This document shows, one piece after another, positions 51,428-64,000 of a DNA stretch of 64,000 bases. The stretch comes from Hyphobacterium indicum (GTDB lineage: Bacteria; Pseudomonadota; Alphaproteobacteria; Caulobacterales; Maricaulaceae). The stretch covers positions 434,001-498,000 of the forward strand of contig NZ_QBDX01000004.1 in NCBI RefSeq assembly GCF_003129605.1, written 5' to 3'. The notes beneath the pieces were generated by a model. That model was given only the letters and a program-made list of their open reading frames with translations. It made no database searches and had not been told where the DNA came from. Within the stretch, counting starts at the first letter, position 1; each line of letters opens with the position of its first letter. A program made the position numbers and the translations under genes.

Positions 51428-52663
51428 TTGGACACGTTCAATACGCCCCTGGACCTGGTCCGCAATCGGCCCGTCGAGGTCCCGAACATTTGTGTTCGTC
51501 AGGATCGACTGTCCGTAGCGGTTCGCTGGTTCCAGGACAACTTTAGTGGCGAAGTGCTGTATGCGGTGAAGGCCAATCCTTCCGCATGGGTCATTGATGG
51601 CCTGTACGCATCCGGACAACGCTGGTTCGATGTCGCCTCCCTGCCAGAGGTGCGGCTGATCGCGGAACGCTGCCCGGAGGCCGTCATGGCCTTCCTGCAC
51701 CCGGTCAAGAGCCGTCATGCGATTCGTACCGCCTATTTTGAATACGGCGTGCGGATTTTCGCCCTCGATTGCGAGGATGAGCTCGCCAAGATTCTCGAGT
51801 CCACGGACAATGCCCAGGACCTGACGCTGATCGTGCGTCTCGGCGTCTCCAATGCCGGAGCCGTCCTGCCGCTGGCCGGCAAGTTCGGCGCCAGCACGTT
51901 CGACGCGCCGGCCCTGATCGAGAAGGCCCGCCATGCCGCCGACGAGCTGGGTGTCAGCTTCCATGTCGGCAGCCAGTGCATGGATCCGATGGCCTATCGC
52001 GCCGCCATGATGGAAGCCAGCCGCCTGATCGCGCGCGCCGGAGTCACCGTCGACATTGTCGATGTCGGGGGCGGATTCCCGTCCGTCTATCCGGGTCTAA
52101 CCCCGCCGCCGCTGCACGATTATATCGACGCCATCGAGGATGCGTTCGAGGAAATGATGGTGCTGGAGAACGCCGATCTGTGGTGTGAGCCCGGCCGCGC
52201 CCTGGTCGCCGAGGCCAGCTCCCTCCTCACCCGGGTGGAGCTGCGCAAGGGCGATGCGCTCTATCTCAATGACGGCGCCTATGGCAGCCTGTTTGACGCC
52301 ACCCACGCCAAATGGCCCTTCCCTATGCGCGTCTTCCGCGAGAGCGGTGAGGTGAAAGGCGAGGTCTCGCCCTTCCGGCTGTTCGGCCCGACCTGCGATT
52401 CGATCGATTCCATGCCCGGACCGTATGATCTGCCGGCCGATATCCGCGAAGGCGATGTCATCGAGATCGGCATGCTGGGCGCCTATGGCGAAGCCATGGC
52501 CACGCGCTTCAACGGCTTCGGGGACTATACCTGGGCAGCGGTCCGTGATTTTCCTTGGGAAAGCCTGTATGTTGCCCGCCCGGCCCGCCGGATCTCCGAG
52601 GGAGCCGAAATCGTCGCCTTTCCGCGCACAAAACGCCGCCGCGAGCGGTTGCGCCGCCGCTAA
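51428..52663 (+). CDS. Type III PLP-dependent ornithine/lysine decarboxylase (TTG start)
   Basis: 411 residues with a TTG start preceded by AGGGGG. Fold-type III features: VLYAVKANPSAWVIDGLYAS (PLP lysine), SFHVGSQCMDP, DIVDVGGGFPSVYPGL, WCEPGRALVAE and the C-terminal FGPTCDSIDSM, whose Cys belongs to the active site of the neighbouring subunit. It makes putrescine (or cadaverine). The next gene, 18 bp downstream, is deoxyhypusine-synthase-like, which together suggests homospermidine synthesis. Confidence 0.88.
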   Translation: MDTFNTPLDLVRNRPVEVPNICVRQDRLSVAVRWFQDNFSGEVLYAVKANPSAWVIDGLYASGQRWFDVASLPEVRLIAERCPEAVMAFLHPVKSRHAIRTAYFEYGVRIFALDCEDELAKILESTDNAQDLTLIVRLGVSNAGAVLPLAGKFGASTFDAPALIEKARHAADELGVSFHVGSQCMDPMAYRAAMMEASRLIARAGVTVDIVDVGGGFPSVYPGLTPPPLHDYIDAIEDAFEEMMVLENADLWCEPGRALVAEASSLLTRVELRKGDALYLNDGAYGSLFDATHAKWPFPMRVFRESGEVKGEVSPFRLFGPTCDSIDSMPGPYDLPADIREGDVIEIGMLGAYGEAMATRFNGFGDYTWAAVRDFPWESLYVARPARRISEGAEIVAFPRTKRRRERLRRR

Positions 52664-52681
52664 TCAGAAGACGGGTTTTAC

Positions 52682-53728
52682 ATGACTGACAAGACCAACC
52701 GGAAGGCAGAGCTTCTGTCGTCCCCCATCGAGCATATCGACATCACCCAATTCGATGCCCGCCCGGTTATCGATGCCTGGGAGAAGATGTCCTTCACCTC
52801 GCGCGATGCCGCCCGTGCGGCGCGCATCCTCAATGCCGCGGTGTCGGATCCCGATTGCTCGGTGATTCTCACTCTCGCCGGCTCCACCTCGGCGGGCGGC
52901 TGCATGCATGTCTGGCGCGACATGGTGCGCAACAACATGGTCGATGCCATCGTCGCCACCGGCGCCTCCATCGTCGACATGGATTTCTTCGAGGCTCTCG
53001 GCTTCAAGCACTACCAGGCCAAGGACATCCCGGACGACCGCATCCTGCGCGACCTCTATATCGACCGCATCTACGACACCTATATCGACGAGGAAGAGCT
53101 GCAGGCCTGCGACCACACCATTGGTGAAATCGCCGACAGCCTGCCCGCAAAGCCGATCTCCTCGCGCGCCTTCATCCACGCCATGGGCAAATGGCTGGCC
53201 GATGGCAATGCCAAGAAAGAAGGCTCGCTGATCCAGGACTGTTATGAGCATGGTGTGCCGATCTTCGTGCCGGCCTTTGCCGATTGCTCCGCCGGTTTCG
53301 GCCTGGTTAAGCACCAGGTCGAGCGCATGAAGGCGAACAAGCCCTATCTTTCCATCGACGCGGTGGCCGATTTCCGCGAGCTGACCGACATCAAGATCAA
53401 GGCGGGTGTGACCGGCCTGTTCATGGTCGGCGGCGGCGTGCCGAAGAATTTCGCCCAGGACACCGTCGTCTGTGCGGAAATCCTCGGCCATGAAGTACCG
53501 ATGCACGCCTATGCGGTGCAGATCACCGTCGCCGATGTGCGCGACGGGGCGTGTTCCTCCTCGACGCTGAAAGAGGCCTGCTCGTGGGGCAAGGTCGATG
53601 TGACGCTGGAACAGATGGTATTTGCCGAAGCCACCACCGTGGCCCCGCTCATCGTCTCCGACGTCTATCACCGCGAGGCCTGGAAGGGCCGCAAGAAGCG
53701 GCGGTTTGCGGACATGTTTGAAGACTAG
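52682..53728 (+). CDS. Deoxyhypusine synthase-like protein, probable homospermidine synthase
   Basis: 348 residues. NAD-binding region AGSTSAGGCMHVWRDMVRNN and IVATGASIVDMDFFEALGF; the catalytic lysine motif of deoxyhypusine synthase is present (KEACSWGKVDVTLEQ). Bacteria lack eIF5A; bacterial members have been shown to make homospermidine from putrescine. It sits in an operon with the decarboxylase that would supply putrescine. Confidence 0.88.
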   Translation: MTDKTNRKAELLSSPIEHIDITQFDARPVIDAWEKMSFTSRDAARAARILNAAVSDPDCSVILTLAGSTSAGGCMHVWRDMVRNNMVDAIVATGASIVDMDFFEALGFKHYQAKDIPDDRILRDLYIDRIYDTYIDEEELQACDHTIGEIADSLPAKPISSRAFIHAMGKWLADGNAKKEGSLIQDCYEHGVPIFVPAFADCSAGFGLVKHQVERMKANKPYLSIDAVADFRELTDIKIKAGVTGLFMVGGGVPKNFAQDTVVCAEILGHEVPMHAYAVQITVADVRDGACSSSTLKEACSWGKVDVTLEQMVFAEATTVAPLIVSDVYHREAWKGRKKRRFADMFED

Positions 53729-56763: not shown

Positions 56764-56880
56764 CCTTGACTTCGATCATTGCAGCATAGAATTTCCAAGT
56801 ACTTTATAATCAAAGAATTATTTATAATAATAATTCGGTAACTGTTCTGACATATTAATTTTATTTTAAATAATTATGGT

Positions 56881-57321
56881 TTAATCAGAATGATCTGCAC
56901 ACTGTAGACACAGTATGTTGTTGCTACGCCACATATCTACAACAGACTTTCTGTCGTCAACAACAAATGCAATATCGCTACCTTTTCGTAATAATTTTGC
57001 TAACATCTCGGCCTTGATCTTATAGTCTGGACGATAATCACCATCGGGCCGCATCATTAGATGATCAAACTCTATTTCATTTGAAGCCAACCATTTTTCT
57101 GTAACCGGGCGGTACCTTTCTGGTCGCCCTGTAGCAATTATAGAATTAAATAGCTTAGTGCCATGAATTAACTTGTACAACTCAACGATTTCTGTATTCG
57201 GTTTATCGTCGATCATTCTACTAAAAAATAGTTCCCAGTTTATCGGCTGCTTTGCAAGGACTTCACGCCTATGGTCTATGTTAGCTAGAGTGCCATCTAT
57301 ATCAAATATAATTGTACGCAA
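56881..57321 (-). CDS. HAD phosphatase of the T4 Pnkp 3'-phosphatase type
   Basis: 146 residues with a TTG start at 57321; no ATG or GTG lies in the short upstream extension. The HAD motifs are all present: I, FDIDGTLANIDHR; II, IIATGRPERYRPVTEKWL; III/IV, MRPDGDYRPDYKIKAEML and AFVVDDRKSVVDMWR. The combination of MRPDGDYRPD, VVDMWR and a Leu-Gln tail matches phage and bacterial polynucleotide 3'-phosphatases of the T4 Pnkp family, without a kinase domain. Expected activity: removal of 3' or 2',3'-cyclic phosphates from nucleic acid ends. It is AT-rich, unlike its flanks, and divergent from the next two genes. Confidence 0.82.
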   Translation of the reverse strand: MRTIIFDIDGTLANIDHRREVLAKQPINWELFFSRMIDDKPNTEIVELYKLIHGTKLFNSIIATGRPERYRPVTEKWLASNEIEFDHLMMRPDGDYRPDYKIKAEMLAKLLRKGSDIAFVVDDRKSVVDMWRSNNILCLQCADHSD

Positions 57322-57537
57322 CTTTTCTGCCCAATCACGTAGTTTCTGATACAGCTTATATGGAACCTATTGCCAATGCAATTTTTTGAACAGTTTTTTA
57401 AATTGCTTCAAAAACACTTGACCGCCCCTTCGGCGTAGAAAGTCAGGAACTTAGGCTTGATTTCATAACCATTGTATCGCAGGTTAAATTATCATGTAGA
57501 TCGTAAATTACATTGGCCCTTGAACCAATTTTTTTGT

Positions 57538-58815
57538 ATGGCCGAGCCTCGTCCTTCAATTGGCAACCTACTTCCCGCAGATTACGTCAATCTGCTTGAC
57601 GGCCTAGAGCAAGCCCTAGGTGTTAAAGTTTACCTTTATGGCGGTTGGGTGCTTTCTGCACTGCTGAGTAAACCGTACTTCGGCGATATTGATATAGTAA
57701 CGGAGTTACCTCTATCTGATTTGAGCGATGCATTAGCTTCCTTGGGAGTCAAAACGGGCACTCGTTTAAACGACATATTACGCATCAGACTCGCCGATGG
57801 GAATTTTATCGATGCGAACTCACTATACTTCCGGCGAAAGAAGCTCTCGCTAAAAGCTTTCCTATCCAGGAAAACGTTTTCGGTAAACGCGTGTGCGATC
57901 GACATTGGCACCGGGAAATATACTTTCACCGAGCAGTGTGAACGCGACATACTCGAAAGAAATTTTCGGGTTAATCCGAACGCTGAAATGGAGGGGCAAC
58001 GGCCTCTTTCAGTTCTCCGTACTTGGCACGAAATGAAATGCCACTACGGCTTAGAGTTTGTTGCTACCAACGGCTTCGAGGAGCAATATTTTGAAACCCT
58101 TGATAAAAACTGGCCCACAAATCAGATAGGAACCGGCTCGACTGAGCAATGTCTGAAAAGCACGCTTGAACCTTTCTTACCGAAGCAGTTTGATAAATAT
58201 CTTACCAAGGGCGCGGTTCGCAGTATTATACTTAATAGCTTCACGGTCTGGGACGACGTCGACGTGATCGTGAAATGTGACCGACGAGAAATTGTGCGTC
58301 ACCTTCAGTCTTTTAATGCAGAGTTTTCGCTGAATCACTATGGCAACCCCAAAATTTCACTGCCGGTCGGCCAGTTTGTTGATGTAATCCCTATTGGCAA
58401 AAATGGAAACTTGGCAGAAACATTGGAAAGTTTTTTTCACGAAAGTGATCGGCTAATTTGGGACTGGCAAACTGAGCATATAGAAGATCCCGTGAGTGTT
58501 CGGGATAATTTATCCAAGAAAGTAATTACCTTCCCGAAGCCACTTTTCCTTTCGCTTGCCGAGGAAGACATAGCTTATTTTGCACTGAAGTCGGTTTATC
58601 TAATTGTCCGGCATGATTTTGAACATGACTCACAAACGATGCGACACATAAATTCGCCTCAAGCATTCACTCCACATCATCGCCGCCTCTGTGTTTCTAT
58701 GGTTAAAGAATTGATTTGCACGCAACCTAAAGCGCTTCTAAAAAATCGTATATATCGGCTGGATGCCGGGATTAGGTCTAGCGCCACTTCGCTATTTTTG
58801 AGTTATTTACAGTAG
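57538..58815 (+). CDS. Protein with two CCA-adding/poly(A)-polymerase-type nucleotidyltransferase modules
   Basis: 425 residues from ATG 57538 (a TTG at 57472 would add 22). Module 1: YLYGGWVLSALL, DID at 50-52, third Asp at 92, then RKTFSVNACAIDI and RPLSVLRTWHEMKCHYGLEF, which match the RRDFTINA and DPLRLLRA segments of class II CCA-adding enzymes. Module 2: TKGAVRSIIL, DVD at 240-242, third Asp at 282, then HIEDPVSVRDNLSKKVITFP. Catalytic aspartates thus look intact in both. Expected activity is adding nucleotides to RNA 3' ends. It is AT-rich and 34 bp before the 2H gene. Confidence 0.72.
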   Translation: MAEPRPSIGNLLPADYVNLLDGLEQALGVKVYLYGGWVLSALLSKPYFGDIDIVTELPLSDLSDALASLGVKTGTRLNDILRIRLADGNFIDANSLYFRRKKLSLKAFLSRKTFSVNACAIDIGTGKYTFTEQCERDILERNFRVNPNAEMEGQRPLSVLRTWHEMKCHYGLEFVATNGFEEQYFETLDKNWPTNQIGTGSTEQCLKSTLEPFLPKQFDKYLTKGAVRSIILNSFTVWDDVDVIVKCDRREIVRHLQSFNAEFSLNHYGNPKISLPVGQFVDVIPIGKNGNLAETLESFFHESDRLIWDWQTEHIEDPVSVRDNLSKKVITFPKPLFLSLAEEDIAYFALKSVYLIVRHDFEHDSQTMRHINSPQAFTPHHRRLCVSMVKELICTQPKALLKNRIYRLDAGIRSSATSLFLSYLQ

Positions 58816-58849
58816 GTATAGATAGCAAGAATATAAGAGAGATATAAAG

Positions 58850-60034
58850 ATGCAACCTTATAGATATGATATTAAAAAATTTATCGCCATATCTGCCGTT
58901 ATAGCAATTATTACAAATTGGCTTACTTCATGGATTTTTTCTGCGTTTGGCGCATCAACATTTCTTAATTTAGGGTTATCAACTTCCATAGTAGGCTTAT
59001 TTTGGTTTTTATTTGACCAGTATTTTTGGAAAATGGATGTTTTTCGACGTCTGGGCATTTCAGAATTGCCTGATATTAACGGCGTCTGGGTCGGTGATGT
59101 GAATCGGTTGGGTGAGAACAATCCACATCGTTTTGAGCTAAGAGTGTTTCAAACCTATACAAAAATTTCGATTCAAACAAATAGCGAAAATTCCAAAGGA
59201 AATAGCGTCTGCGCAACCTTCCTAACAGATGAAACGCGTAGGAATTTTGATTTAGTGAACTACTGGTCGAGCAGAACAAAAACGCGTGACCCAGACAAAA
59301 ATTTCCATGAAGAGTTTCGGGGTGTTTCATTGATTGATATCCGAAATCATGACGATCAAATTTCTTTGGAGGACTACTATTTTACAGACCGAAATCCGTC
59401 GACAAAGGGGAAAGTACGCTTACATCGCGTTTCAAAAAAATTGCCGGTAAAAAACAATATGGATTTTGGTGAAACTTTTTTATCCAAGATTTTAGGGTTT
59501 ATAGTCAAAAATGTGCGCTACACTTTAAATAAACACGATGAAAAATTTAGAGTTAGTCGATCTATGAATAAGAAAAGGGCGACATATTTGGATTTAGAGA
59601 CTTCGATAATTTCGAACAAATCGGGAAAACCATATCTCGGCTGCAAGCTTGAAAAAGCGAATATTAAGCAATACCTTGAGCAGGTATCGGACATTCTAGG
59701 CAGTGACTTTCAGTATTTTGAAAATAATCGTCGCGATCGCGATGGGGTAGATTATCATGTGACAATCTTGAGTCCGGAAGAGTACCGACAACTGGTGGAA
59801 CGTGAGAAAAATAACCTTATACCGTTCGTAGGAAAATTAATTCGCTTTGAGATATTGGGCGTAGGTCGTGCTGTACATAACGATGATGAAGCTTTTTTCG
59901 TGGTTCTTGAATCAAGCGAAGCTGATGCTCTTAGGAAGCAGCTTGCCATTGGAGATAGGGATTTTCACATAACGATTGGCTTCTCGGAAGCTGATGTGCA
60001 TGGAGTTTCGAAAGGCAAAGATGCTCTGATCTGA
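58850..60034 (+). CDS. Membrane protein: Cap15-like 2TM/beta-barrel domain fused to a 2H phosphoesterase
   Basis: 394 residues, start preceded by GAGAGAT. Two membrane helices (about 9-31 and 38-58), then a beta-rich domain (70-195) with LPDINGVWVGDV, FQTYTKISIQTNSENSKGNS and LEDYYFTDRNPSTKGKVRLH, the pattern of the S-2TM-beta effector (Cap15) of CBASS anti-phage systems. The C-terminal domain (about 245-394) has two HxT motifs, DYHVTILSPEE (His303) and DFHITIGFSEADVHGVSKG (His373), typical of 2H phosphoesterases acting on cyclic phosphates or 2'-5' bonds. AT-rich, co-directional with the nucleotidyltransferase gene. Confidence 0.75.
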   Translation: MQPYRYDIKKFIAISAVIAIITNWLTSWIFSAFGASTFLNLGLSTSIVGLFWFLFDQYFWKMDVFRRLGISELPDINGVWVGDVNRLGENNPHRFELRVFQTYTKISIQTNSENSKGNSVCATFLTDETRRNFDLVNYWSSRTKTRDPDKNFHEEFRGVSLIDIRNHDDQISLEDYYFTDRNPSTKGKVRLHRVSKKLPVKNNMDFGETFLSKILGFIVKNVRYTLNKHDEKFRVSRSMNKKRATYLDLETSIISNKSGKPYLGCKLEKANIKQYLEQVSDILGSDFQYFENNRRDRDGVDYHVTILSPEEYRQLVEREKNNLIPFVGKLIRFEILGVGRAVHNDDEAFFVVLESSEADALRKQLAIGDRDFHITIGFSEADVHGVSKGKDALI

Positions 60035-60455
60035 ATGCGAACATCTACTTGTAGTGGCTTCAATCATCTGTGTTGATACATTCCAACATGGGAAGTTCCT
60101 TCGGGACTTGGCCTTCCCCCTTATCCCCACCCCCGCATTTCCGCTTACACTCCCTGCCCGTCTCCGCGCGCCCAAGTCTGCGCGCCCGGGCGGCCCCGCA
60201 CCGCCGGTCCTGGAAATTACGGGGATAAAACTGGAATCGCTCTAATGACCGTCATCGCCTTGCCCCACACGCCCCTCCGCCCCGCCAGCGCCTGCGCAGT
60301 TGTAGGAGTTGTAGTAGGAGACAAATTGTCCCGATTCCAGTTTTATCCCCGCTTCTTCGGCGAACCGGCCCGCTCATACCGGGAATGCAAAAGCGGGTAT
60401 CGCCAGGCGGGGGCCCGCATGCTAGGGCGCAAGCAGACAATCGCCGGAGCCTGAC
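60035..60455. other. Intergenic region at the right border of the AT-rich island
   Basis: 421 bp. The first 70 bp remain AT-rich; GC content rises from about 60110 on. It contains the perfect 19-bp inverted repeat described separately and no supported gene. GGAG about 10 bases before 60456 serves as the marC ribosome-binding site. Confidence 0.5.
60221..60350. repeat. 130-bp element bounded by perfect 19-bp inverted repeats
   Basis: GGGGATAAAACTGGAATCG (60221-60239) and its exact reverse complement (60332-60350) enclose 92 bp. Just outside the left arm is GGAAATTAC. Sequences of this kind (GGAAATTACGGGGA...) accompany REP-type/IS200-like (RAYT) elements in many bacteria, so this may be a non-autonomous mobile element or a remnant. 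No transposase is present. Confidence 0.6.
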
Positions 60456-61196: not shown

Positions 61197-61370
61197 ATGG
61201 TACGGCTCGCAGTATTCCTGACAGTATTGGGGCTGGTTCTGACCGGCGTGACCGCCAGTGCGCTGGCCTTTTCACACGGCCATATCGACGCCGGCATCGC
61301 CTTCCTCTGGCCCGCCCTCGCCATCGCCCTGGTGCTCGGCATCGCCATGCCGGGCCGGCAGCGGACCTAG
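61197..61370 (+). CDS. Small two-helix membrane protein
   Basis: 57 residues from ATG 61197, preceded by GGGTGAGG; a GTG at 61170 is an alternative. Two hydrophobic segments (RLAVFLTVLGLVLTGVTASA and IAFLWPALAIALVLGIAMPG) are separated by a short His-rich turn (FSHGHIDAG). No known family. It ends 4 bp inside the 3' end of the convergent amidohydrolase gene. Confidence 0.6.
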   Translation: MVRLAVFLTVLGLVLTGVTASALAFSHGHIDAGIAFLWPALAIALVLGIAMPGRQRT

Positions 61371-62920
61371 CGCTTGTTCCAGACCACGCGGTAAAGGTCG
61401 AAGCGCCGGTCGCGCAGATTGCGCACCGTGCCCGATTGCCGCGCCGCCGTCAGATCATCCAGCCGCACATCGGCGACCACAATGGTCTCGACATTCTCCG
61501 CCGCCACCGCCGCCAGACCATCGCGCGCAAACGGGAAATCACAGGGCGTGATGATGGCGCTCTCGGCGTAATTCACATCCATGTTCTCAACATCCGGCAG
61601 ATTGCCGACATTGCCCGCCGTCACCACATAGACCTGGTTCTCGATTGCCCGCGCATGGGCGCAATAGCGCACCCGCAAATGCCCAGTCCGGTCATCCGTC
61701 GCATAGGGCACGAACAATATGCCCGCCCCCTCATCCGCCAGCTTGCGCGCCAGCTCCGGGAATTCGGCGTCGTAACAGATCAGCACCCCGATCGGCCCGC
61801 AATCGGTCTGGATGGTGCGCACCTCATTGCCGCCCTTGATCCCCCACCAGAATTTCTCGTTCGGGGTGGGGTGGATCTTCTCCTGCGCATGCACCGAGCC
61901 GTCGCGCAGGAAGACATAGGCCACGTTCTGGATGTCGCCGTCATCGGTCTGGGTCGGATGCGATCCGCCTATGATGTTGATATTGTATCCCACCGCCAGG
62001 CTGCGCATGAATTCAATGAAGCCGGGCGTATGTTTCGTCAGCGCCTGGATGGATTCCTCCGGCGTCAGCTTGCGCTTTTCCAGCGCCAGCAAAGCCACGG
62101 TGAACATCTCCGGAAACACGCAGAAATCCGCCCGGTAGTCCGAACAGACATCCACGAAATACTCGATATTGCGCTCGAACGCTTCAAGACTGTCTTCCGC
62201 CCGCGCCTGAAACTGCACCGCGGCCACACGCACCGTGCGCGGCTCCGGCCGGACCGGCGCTTTTTCATCCTCGACCCAGGACGGATTGTGCCAGGCCATC
62301 AACAGGGCATAGCCGAGGGAATCCCTGTCCTCGTCATAATACCCTTTCATCAGCCGCACCGGCTCGAAGCCCTGCCGCGCCTGGAAGGCATAGACCGGGT
62401 CCCGGGCCTTCTTGGCCTTCACCGCCTCCAGATAATTCTCCGGCGTGCCGTATTCCTTGACCTTGCGGCGCAGCGACGGGAAGCGCGCGCCATAGACAAT
62501 GCCCTTCAGACCCCAGTCCTCGCACAGACCGCGTCGTGCATCATACAGGCGTTGCCCCAGCCGGATGCGGCGCACATTGGGGTCGACACAGACTTCCGCG
62601 CCATACAGCCAGTCGCCATCCGGATTATGCAGCGTGCCATAGCCATGGCCGGTAATGCTGTCGAGCGTATGGTCCTCGAATGCCAGCGCCTCGTCGACGA
62701 TGAAGGTCGAGGCCCATCCCGCCAGCTCGCCATCCAGCTCGACCACGAACTGGCCTTCCGGAAAACGTTCCAGCCGGCCCTTGATCATGCCCGGCGCATC
62801 CGGCTCCAGCTTCGGAAAAGCCCGTTTCTGCAGCGCGATAATGTCGTCTATATCGCCGGCCTCCGCATTGCGGATGACCAGGCGCGCGGACTTTTTGTGC
62901 GCATTATCAGCTGCGGGCAT
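61367..62920 (-). CDS. GNAT acetyltransferase-nitrilase (carbon-nitrogen hydrolase) fusion
   Basis: 517 residues. Residues 1-200 are a GNAT domain (DIDDIIALQKRAFPKLEPDA; acetyl-CoA region VDPNVRRIRLGQRLYDARRG). Residues about 230-510 are a nitrilase-superfamily hydrolase with catalytic Glu in FCVFPEMFTVA, Lys in HPTPNEKFWWGIKGG and Cys in IGVLICYDAEFPELARKLAD. This fusion occurs in several bacterial groups; substrates are unknown. It is encoded 8 bp downstream of the N-carbamoylputrescine amidase gene, hinting at amine metabolism. Confidence 0.9.
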   Translation of the reverse strand: MPAADNAHKKSARLVIRNAEAGDIDDIIALQKRAFPKLEPDAPGMIKGRLERFPEGQFVVELDGELAGWASTFIVDEALAFEDHTLDSITGHGYGTLHNPDGDWLYGAEVCVDPNVRRIRLGQRLYDARRGLCEDWGLKGIVYGARFPSLRRKVKEYGTPENYLEAVKAKKARDPVYAFQARQGFEPVRLMKGYYDEDRDSLGYALLMAWHNPSWVEDEKAPVRPEPRTVRVAAVQFQARAEDSLEAFERNIEYFVDVCSDYRADFCVFPEMFTVALLALEKRKLTPEESIQALTKHTPGFIEFMRSLAVGYNINIIGGSHPTQTDDGDIQNVAYVFLRDGSVHAQEKIHPTPNEKFWWGIKGGNEVRTIQTDCGPIGVLICYDAEFPELARKLADEGAGILFVPYATDDRTGHLRVRYCAHARAIENQVYVVTAGNVGNLPDVENMDVNYAESAIITPCDFPFARDGLAAVAAENVETIVVADVRLDDLTAARQSGTVRNLRDRRFDLYRVVWNKR

Positions 62921-62928
62921 GAATCATC

Positions 62929-63765
62929 CTATTTGTAGAATTCGGGGCGGCGGTCCCGGAAAAAACCCCAGGCCGCGCGATGGCGATTGAGAAATTCGAG
63001 ATCGAAGCTTGCGGTAATGAAACCGGTTTCGGCCCGGTCCAGTTCCGCGACAATCGCCCCGGCATGATCGGCAATGAAGGACGTTCCATAAAAAACCTGT
63101 CCGTCTTCATCCCCGACGCGGTTGGCTGCAACCACGGGCATGACGTTGGAAACGGCATGGCCCTGCATGGCCCGGCGCCAGCGCGCCGCCGTGTCGAGGC
63201 TGTCATCATGCGGTTCCGAACCGATCGCCGTCGGATACATCAGGACATCTGCGCCCATCAGCGCCATGGCGCGCGCGCTTTCCGGGAACCACTGGTCCCA
63301 GCAAATGCCCACGCCGATCCTGCCGTGCCGGGTCGTCCAGACCTTGAAACCGGTATCACCGGGGCGGAAATAGTATTTCTCCTGATAGCCGGGACCATCC
63401 GGAATATGGCTCTTGCGATAGACGCCAAGTGCCGCGCCATCCGCATCCAGCATGACCAGCGAGTTATAATAACAGGGACCGTCCTTCTCGAAGATCGAGA
63501 CCGGAATGACCACGCCCAGATCCCTGGCCAGTGGCTGCAATGCGGTCACGCAGGGATGCTCCAGCGCCGGGAAAGCGTGCGCAAACCAGTGTTCTTCCTG
63601 TGTCTTGCAGAAATACGGCCCCTGGAACAATTCGGGCGGCAAGATGACGTGCGCCCCCGCATCCGCGGCCTGCCGGATCAGGCCGGCCACGGTCTCGATA
63701 TTCGCGTGGATATCATTCCCGAAGGACGCCTGAAGCGCCGCAACGGTCAGTTTCTGATCGGGCAT
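62929..63765 (-). CDS. aguB: N-carbamoylputrescine amidase
   Basis: 278 residues from ATG 63765 (MPDQKLTVAALQASFGNDI), which agrees with the family start. Nitrilase triad: Glu in VILPPELFQGPYFC, Lys in VYRKSHIPDGPGYQEKYYF and Cys in IGVGICWDQWFPESARAMAL. PGYQEKYYFRPGDTGF and RHRAAWGFFRDRRPEFYK are typical of AguB. It hydrolyses N-carbamoylputrescine to putrescine in the arginine-agmatine route, giving a second source of putrescine beside the decarboxylase at 51428. Confidence 0.93.
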   Translation of the reverse strand: MPDQKLTVAALQASFGNDIHANIETVAGLIRQAADAGAHVILPPELFQGPYFCKTQEEHWFAHAFPALEHPCVTALQPLARDLGVVIPVSIFEKDGPCYYNSLVMLDADGAALGVYRKSHIPDGPGYQEKYYFRPGDTGFKVWTTRHGRIGVGICWDQWFPESARAMALMGADVLMYPTAIGSEPHDDSLDTAARWRRAMQGHAVSNVMPVVAANRVGDEDGQVFYGTSFIADHAGAIVAELDRAETGFITASFDLEFLNRHRAAWGFFRDRRPEFYK

Positions 63766-63778
63766 GAAAGTGTCCGTT

Positions 63779-64000
63779 CTATTCGTCGAGCTGGTCGAGC
63801 CAGTCGCCGGGGCCATCGCCCGTCCGCAAATCCATCAGCGTCGGAAACAGCCACCAAGGCGCATCACCATCCGCATTCCATAGTCCCACATAAGCAAATC
63901 CGGTCGCGGGTTCCAGATAGATTTGTGCACCATAGCCGGAAAGATAGCCGGAATGTGTCAGAAGCTCGCGCCCGTTCCAGTTATAGGTGCGCCAGCCCAG
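63779..64000 (-). CDS. Serine hydrolase, beta-lactamase/AmpC-like (C-terminal end only)
   Basis: 73 residues up to a TAG at 63779; the 5' part lies outside the window. The segment LLTHSGYLSGYGAQIYLEPA carries the His-Ser-Gly version of the third active-site motif of serine beta-lactamase-fold enzymes, followed by TGFAYVGLWNADG. It ends 13 bp before the aguB start on the same strand. Confidence 0.75.
   Translation of the reverse strand: MGWRTYNWNGRELLTHSGYLSGYGAQIYLEPATGFAYVGLWNADGDAPWWLFPTLMDLRTGDGPGDWLDQLDE

Follow-up and report, generated by a model that had tools for sequence, protein, structure and literature searches.

A tandem of two class II CCA-type head-neck modules encoded beside a 2TM-Cap15-2H fusion protein in a low-GC cassette of Hyphobacterium indicum

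In a stretch of 64,000 nucleotides of the Hyphobacterium indicum genome (contig NZ_QBDX01000004.1, positions 434,001 to 498,000 of the forward strand; assembly GCF_003129605.1), which we refer to as the window, one gene appears to encode two nucleotidyltransferase modules in a single chain. A preliminary description of the sequence took both modules to be of the CCA-adding type, noted genes for a phosphatase and a 2H enzyme next to them and concluded that the protein has a dedicated, non-housekeeping role. This raises the questions of whether the second module is a true member of the family, whether the enzyme still belongs to the CCA-adding enzymes and what it could do in the company of its neighbors. 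The features of the locus are compiled in Table 1.

Table 1. Features of the cassette in the window and of related two-gene units
Feature	Position	Strand	Remarks
Inserted low-GC island with three genes	56764..60050		40% GC versus 62-67% around it
HAD phosphatase, PNKP 3'-phosphatase family	56881..57321	-	TTG start; divergently transcribed
Twin-headed nucleotidyltransferase gene	57538..58815	+	425 aa; head 1, neck 1, head 2, neck 2, helical tail
Module 1 PolyA_pol/CCA head	57628..57975	+	aa 31-146; Pfam PF01743, E 5.4e-5
Module 1 catalytic residues	57685, 57691, 57811		D50, D52, D92; motif B-like RKTFSVNA
Module 1 neck segment	57985..58053	+	aa 150-172; RPLSVLR
Module 2 head	58189..58536	+	aa 218-333; GAVR; profile comparison and AlphaFold2 model/Foldseek
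Module 2 catalytic residues	58255, 58261, 58381		D240, D242, D282
Module 2 neck-like helix (EEDIAYFALKSVYL) and conserved helical tail (SPQAFTPHHRRLC)	58555..58812	+	
2TM + Cap15 beta-barrel receptor + 2H-SAK phosphoesterase fusion	58850..60034	+	394 aa
Two transmembrane helices	58877..59029	+	aa 10-60, approximate
Cap15-type cyclic-nucleotide receptor barrel	59063..59431	+	aa 72-194
2H-SAK phosphoesterase domain	59603..60031	+	aa 252-394
2TM-Cap15 + 2H-SAK two-gene units	L021:9381-10435; L023:9394-10402		

Two CCA-type modules in one chain

The open reading frame encodes 425 amino acids if translation starts at the ATG and 447 if it starts at an upstream TTG. Module 1 was barely above the cut-off of the Pfam PolyA_pol family (24.0 versus 23 bits; E 5e-5), and module 2 gave no match in the Pfam search. 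Therefore, we tested module 2 by profile comparison with hhalign, using a profile built from 12 CCA-type enzymes, of which ten are encoded on phage contigs and two in bacterial genomes, and 150 column shuffles as controls. Module 2 was aligned with the CCA profile with a score of 43.8 over 146 columns comprising head and neck, whereas the shuffled columns averaged 15.5 and did not exceed 22.5. The score of module 1 with the same profile was 58.4 over 149 columns (shuffle maximum, 24.4), and the two modules matched each other with a score of 33.1 over 63 columns (shuffle maximum, 19.8). The real score was not reached by any shuffle in any of the three comparisons, which bears out the proposal of two CCA-type modules in one chain, similar to each other as well as to CCA enzymes.

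An AlphaFold2 model of module 2 had a mean pLDDT of 85.9, and each of the 45 PDB entries that it matched at E ≤ 1e-3 is the structure of a CCA-adding enzyme or tRNA nucleotidyltransferase. The model would thus place the second D-x-D in a CCA-type fold, as had been supposed, but since CCA sequences were present in the input alignment, it is biased and indicates compatibility rather than independent proof. The full-length model of the enzyme, calculated from two sequences, was poor (pLDDT 39.8). The six catalytic Asp residues are exactly where the preliminary description had put them (Table 1), and the G-x-V signature was indeed found in both halves, as GGWV (aa 35 to 38) in module 1 and GAVR (aa 225 to 228) in module 2. 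All six Asp residues are invariant in the only full-length relative found (locus L018, see below), which is 45% identical, and both catalytic centers therefore appear to be intact. A chance occurrence of D-x-D in module 2 was ruled out by the shuffle controls together with this conservation. These data confirm that two class II CCA/poly(A)-polymerase head-neck modules follow each other in the 425-aa protein.

Secondary motif residues are less well preserved. Module 1 keeps the GG, but the R of VRD and the D of RRD are missing from it. Of the two segments likened before to the CCA motifs RRDFTINA and DPLRLLRA, RPLSVLR (aa 155 to 161) matches the neck motif, whereas RKTFSVNA (aa 111 to 118) is only a partial match to motif B. 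In module 2, GAVR is kept and the second G of GG is missing, and only the aligned Asp is present in the region of motif B (RRDFTINA). If these losses had rendered one head catalytically dead, it would serve as a scaffold or RNA-binding platform only and the protein would be a single-site enzyme. There is precedent for this in viral poly(A) polymerases, in which the second NT fold is non-functional (PMC11646218). On the other hand, neither Asp triad differs in any residue from that of the relative, although the two proteins are only 45% identical; we argue from this that both sites are used, and a dead head is unlikely.

Is the twin-headed protein, then, a CCA-adding enzyme? With class II CCA enzymes and bacterial poly(A) polymerase it has in common the head fold, the neck helix motif and the D-x-D with a third acidic residue, the last being present in both modules, while the GG that precedes it is found in module 1 only. 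In class II CCA enzymes, motif D templates C and A. This motif (E-R-x-x-x-E) is absent after neck 1, which continues into module 2, and no Pfam match to the RNAbd or tail domains was found in the twin-headed enzyme; the place of body and tail is occupied by the second head-neck unit. The genome's own, ordinary CCA enzyme does carry motif D (SAERVWMETKK), and with this other enzyme encoded in the genome, a housekeeping CCA function of the twin-headed enzyme is ruled out. Thus, the protein is CCA-like in fold but falls outside the class II CCA-adding enzymes with respect to motif D, body and tail, and it differs from them further in having two head-neck modules and in being a non-housekeeping copy. 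The term "CCA-adding" was too specific, given the missing parts and the secondary motif residues lost in both modules, but the dedicated, non-housekeeping role is upheld by the separate CCA enzyme with motif D and by the location of the gene in a recurring, horizontally acquired cassette. Since motif D, the tRNA-binding body and the tail are lacking, ordinary tRNA is probably not the acceptor. The twin-headed enzyme gave no match to CD-NTases in PADLOC or Pfam, and no mCpol is present among the three genes of the cassette; an identity as CD-NTase or mCpol was rejected, the enzyme being CCA type by profile and fold. Two related NT-fold domains in one chain are also present in GlnE, the glutamine synthetase adenylyltransferase (PMC11646218), but GlnE belongs to another clade of the NT fold, has a protein substrate and is found in a different context.

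The cassette, its chromosomal slot and its relatives

The phosphatase and the 2H enzyme reported as neighbors are both present, but it had been missed that the 2H domain is fused to a 2TM-Cap15 receptor, and this fusion is the main clue to function. The fusion gene lies 34 bp downstream of the nucleotidyltransferase gene on the same strand. Its product matched the Pfam families Cap15_CD_rec (1e-13) and 2H-SAK (3e-19), the 2TM CBASS effector of PADLOC (4e-27; the 2TM models span aa 12 to 196) and the crystal structure of Cap15 (7n34; E 1.8e-4), and its barrel has residues in common with members from CBASS and Panoptes. Judged by its sequence, the protein would be a nucleotide-gated effector of a known Cap type. 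Both HxT motifs of the 2H-SAK domain (H303/T305 and H373/T375) are intact and invariant across the relatives. The third gene product, the HAD phosphatase, matched Pfam HAD_PNKP (E 3e-29) and, in profile searches, Pnkp1 (4xrp; 1.6e-30) and T4 Pnk (1ltq), the phosphatase domains of Pnkp being its closest match. Its catalytic residues (DxDGT, GR, K103 and DD) are intact, in PNKP-like order and invariant in the HAD alignment. Plasmid matches to the HAD protein alone were discarded, as their neighborhoods were unrelated to the cassette.

The island that holds the three genes begins directly after the stop codon of an amino-acid permease gene. The genes on either side of it have 64 to 67% GC. Searches of the window for Rfam and tRNA features gave no match, and integration at a tRNA is therefore not indicated. 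In the genome of one sister species in the genus (G428), the slot holds only about 420 bp, including an open reading frame for 88 amino acids (L064:4781-5044) that resembles, by eye, a small HicA-like protein and had no Pfam or PADLOC match. In another sister species (G1108), a SIR2-APAZ-type gene and a short prokaryotic Argonaute occupy the same slot (L065:1646-4851), with PADLOC matches of 7e-168 and 1.5e-177. Because of this SIR2/short-Argonaute system, the slot looks like a small defense hotspot of the genus, which supports, without proving, an anti-phage role of the cassette.

On its right flank, the island is followed by a perfect 20-bp inverted repeat (CGGGGATAAAACTGGAATCG; positions 60220 to 60351) with arms about 90 bp apart. 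A similar pair is present on another contig of the genome (C3, 67134 to 67264) and single copies occur elsewhere; the repeat is possibly a small non-autonomous repeat element. Farther downstream (61367 to 62920, minus strand), a 517-aa protein is encoded that looks, by eye, like a fusion of a GNAT acetyltransferase at the N terminus to a nitrilase-type amidohydrolase, and it lies near polyamine-type genes (51428 to 53728 and 62929 to 63816).

A second copy of the whole cassette, identical in gene order and orientation, is present on a contig of a Sphingomonadales metagenome-assembled genome (L018), which was reached via the 2H alignment only. The identities to the window are 56% for the HAD phosphatase, 45% for the nucleotidyltransferase, 69% for the Cap15 part and 46% for the 2H domain. 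This copy is also low in GC (about 45% versus 60%), and its neighbors differ from those in the window. The cassette is rare, these two being the only complete ones known: a search with profile A2 gave no further copy in 398 genomes of the order, and searches of phages, plasmids, viral and genome contigs and some 1,290 genome draws, sets that overlap, yielded no full-length relative of the nucleotidyltransferase but only ordinary CCA-type enzymes aligned to module 1.

Parts of the cassette are found in other combinations. In Rheinheimera (L021) and Halobeggiatoa (L023), a 2TM-Cap15 gene directly precedes a 2H gene, with neither a nucleotidyltransferase nor the HAD gene near the pair; in L021, the start and stop codons of the two genes overlap and the GC content is 37% versus about 49%. 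Since these loci lack the nucleotidyltransferase, the Cap15-2H pair can work without the twin-headed enzyme. In 21 of the 30 viral 2H-SAK loci retrieved, an ordinary CCA enzyme is encoded on the same strand no more than 2.5 kb upstream, and the linkage persists in 12 of 18 loci after clustering at 60% identity. On the viral contigs L031/L032 (5476-7668) and L050/L051 (5878-7987), the CCA enzyme is present as two open reading frames about 0.9 to 1.1 kb apart, which suggests an intron, intein or insertion. Apparent N-terminal signal peptides were seen on 2H-SAK proteins of Colwellia/Thalassotalea-type genomes (L019, L024, L026, L069 and L070), hinting at a periplasmic 2H branch; in L019, L024 and L026, the genes are downstream of ligA.

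Possible functions of the cassette

The interpretation starts from what can be read in the DNA, that is, the domains, their intact catalytic residues, the conservation of the cassette and its insertion at what looks like a defense hotspot. We tentatively favor the explanation that the cassette is a mobile anti-phage module, akin in its logic to CBASS and Panoptes and run by a nucleotide signal, which the twin-headed enzyme would make, the Cap15-2TM part would read and the 2H and HAD enzymes would remove. Having two class II CCA-type head-neck modules instead of a tRNA-binding body, the enzyme would use its heads as a built-in pseudo-dimer to make a small nucleotide as the ligand, probably a dinucleotide or oligonucleotide. 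The Cap15 barrel would read this ligand and thereby control the assembly of the two transmembrane helices and the breach of the membrane. The 2H phosphoesterase on the same chain would cleave it, so that sensor, effector and off-switch would be one protein, and the HAD phosphatase may dephosphorylate the ends of the cleavage products or of RNA. Along with the anti-phage role, we infer the existence and identity of such a ligand and its trigger, and the ligand could act by CBASS-like activation or by Panoptes-like restraint of the effector.

This explanation is favored because Cap15 and OptE are switched by nucleotides, because the twin-headed protein is the sole enzyme of the cassette able to polymerize nucleotides and because it lacks the parts that hold and measure tRNA. 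Cap15 multimerizes upon ligand binding and disrupts the membrane, and OptE is restrained by 2',3'-c-di-AMP (PMC12657230, PMC12657218). Moreover, in OptS two protomers contribute to each active site (PMC12657218), and two heads in one chain could form shared active sites in a similar manner. The recurrence of the cassette at 45 to 69% identity, as low-GC DNA in both places, is further support. Signals of this kind are degraded by members of the 2H family, such as phage Acb1 and the viral enzymes that degrade 2-5A. On the other side, we know of no class II CCA-type enzyme that makes a signaling nucleotide, the Cap15-2H pairs of L021 and L023 have no synthase nearby, and the phage 2H-SAK genes beside CCA enzymes as well as the 3'-phosphatase family of the HAD protein point to RNA ends. 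That the two CCA-type heads are a pseudo-dimer synthase of a soluble nucleotide for a Cap15 effector with its own signal-destroying 2H domain is a proposal that we make with considerable doubt.

If RNA ends are the substrate, the cassette could couple the repair of RNA 3' ends to a sensor of damage; this is the main rival, which we regard as possible though doubtful. The 2H enzyme would open 2',3'-cyclic phosphate ends, the HAD enzyme would remove the phosphate and the twin-headed enzyme would restore lost nucleotides of tRNA or another RNA, whereas the Cap15-2TM part would detect small nucleotides arising from RNA damage and kill the cell if repair fails. The three activities make up a complete 3'-end healing chain, and the same succession of 2H, HAD phosphatase and Pol-beta nucleotidyltransferase has been suggested to act in the RNA repair of jumbo phages (PMC7824862). 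The linkage of CCA and 2H-SAK genes in viruses and the proximity of the HAD protein to Pnkp phosphatase domains argue for repair, and the synthase-free pairs of L021 and L023, which suit the sensing of a pre-existing ligand, fit it better. However, the cassette encodes no ligase or kinase, and since the enzyme lacks motif D, the tRNA-binding body and the tail, it should not build CCA in the known way. Repair also explains neither the two heads nor the fusion of a nucleotide-gated membrane effector to the 2H domain. The repair sets of jumbo phages contain the same three enzyme types (2H, HAD/PNKP phosphatase and a CCA or RlaP nucleotidyltransferase; PMC7824862), but the cassette differs from them in its missing ligase, its two-headed enzyme, the fusion of 2H to a membrane receptor and its bacterial defense slot.

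A toxin that adds nucleotides to tRNA 3' ends and so blocks charging, as MenT does, with the phosphatase and 2H enzymes as antidotes or regulators, is improbable: Pol-beta-fold tRNA nucleotidyltransferase toxins do exist, MenT3 being one (PMC11541572), and the genes sit in a defense hotspot, but a toxin-antitoxin pairing is not evident, no reversal of nucleotide addition by HAD or 2H enzymes is known, MenT belongs to another branch of the fold and the Cap15-2TM fusion would be left unexplained.

Returning to the nucleotide-signal explanation, the ligands of the 2TM-Cap15 effector systems known in bacteria are, to our knowledge, made by CD-NTases or mCpol. If the explanation is true, the CCA-type tandem would be a third type of synthase feeding such effectors, RNA 3'-end chemistry would be tied to nucleotide-gated cell death and it would be suggested how repair enzymes became immune signaling enzymes. 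The effector belongs to a known class, and the novelty would be categorical only if the enzyme makes the signal. To judge from the open-license papers searched, neither a class II CCA-type enzyme in tandem form nor a fusion of Cap15 to 2H has been described, and we likewise found no account of a repair set linked to a death effector.

With Cap15-containing CBASS, the cassette has in common the 2TM-Cap15 effector beside a Pol-beta-fold nucleotidyltransferase and the location in a defense hotspot, gating being predicted here. In contrast to CBASS, its candidate synthase is of the class II CCA type and not a CD-NTase (cGAS/DncV-like), its effector carries a 2H phosphoesterase and a PNKP-type phosphatase is added. 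Like Panoptes (mCpol/OptS and 2TM-beta/OptE), it is a small module of one nucleotide-making enzyme, with synthesis predicted in the case of the cassette, and one 2TM-beta effector, but it lacks mCpol and has the extra 2H and HAD enzymes. A Panoptes-type pair was seen on a plasmid of Shewanella baltica (L017:4519-5630), where a gene annotated as diadenylate cyclase adjoins a 2TM-Cap15-like gene.
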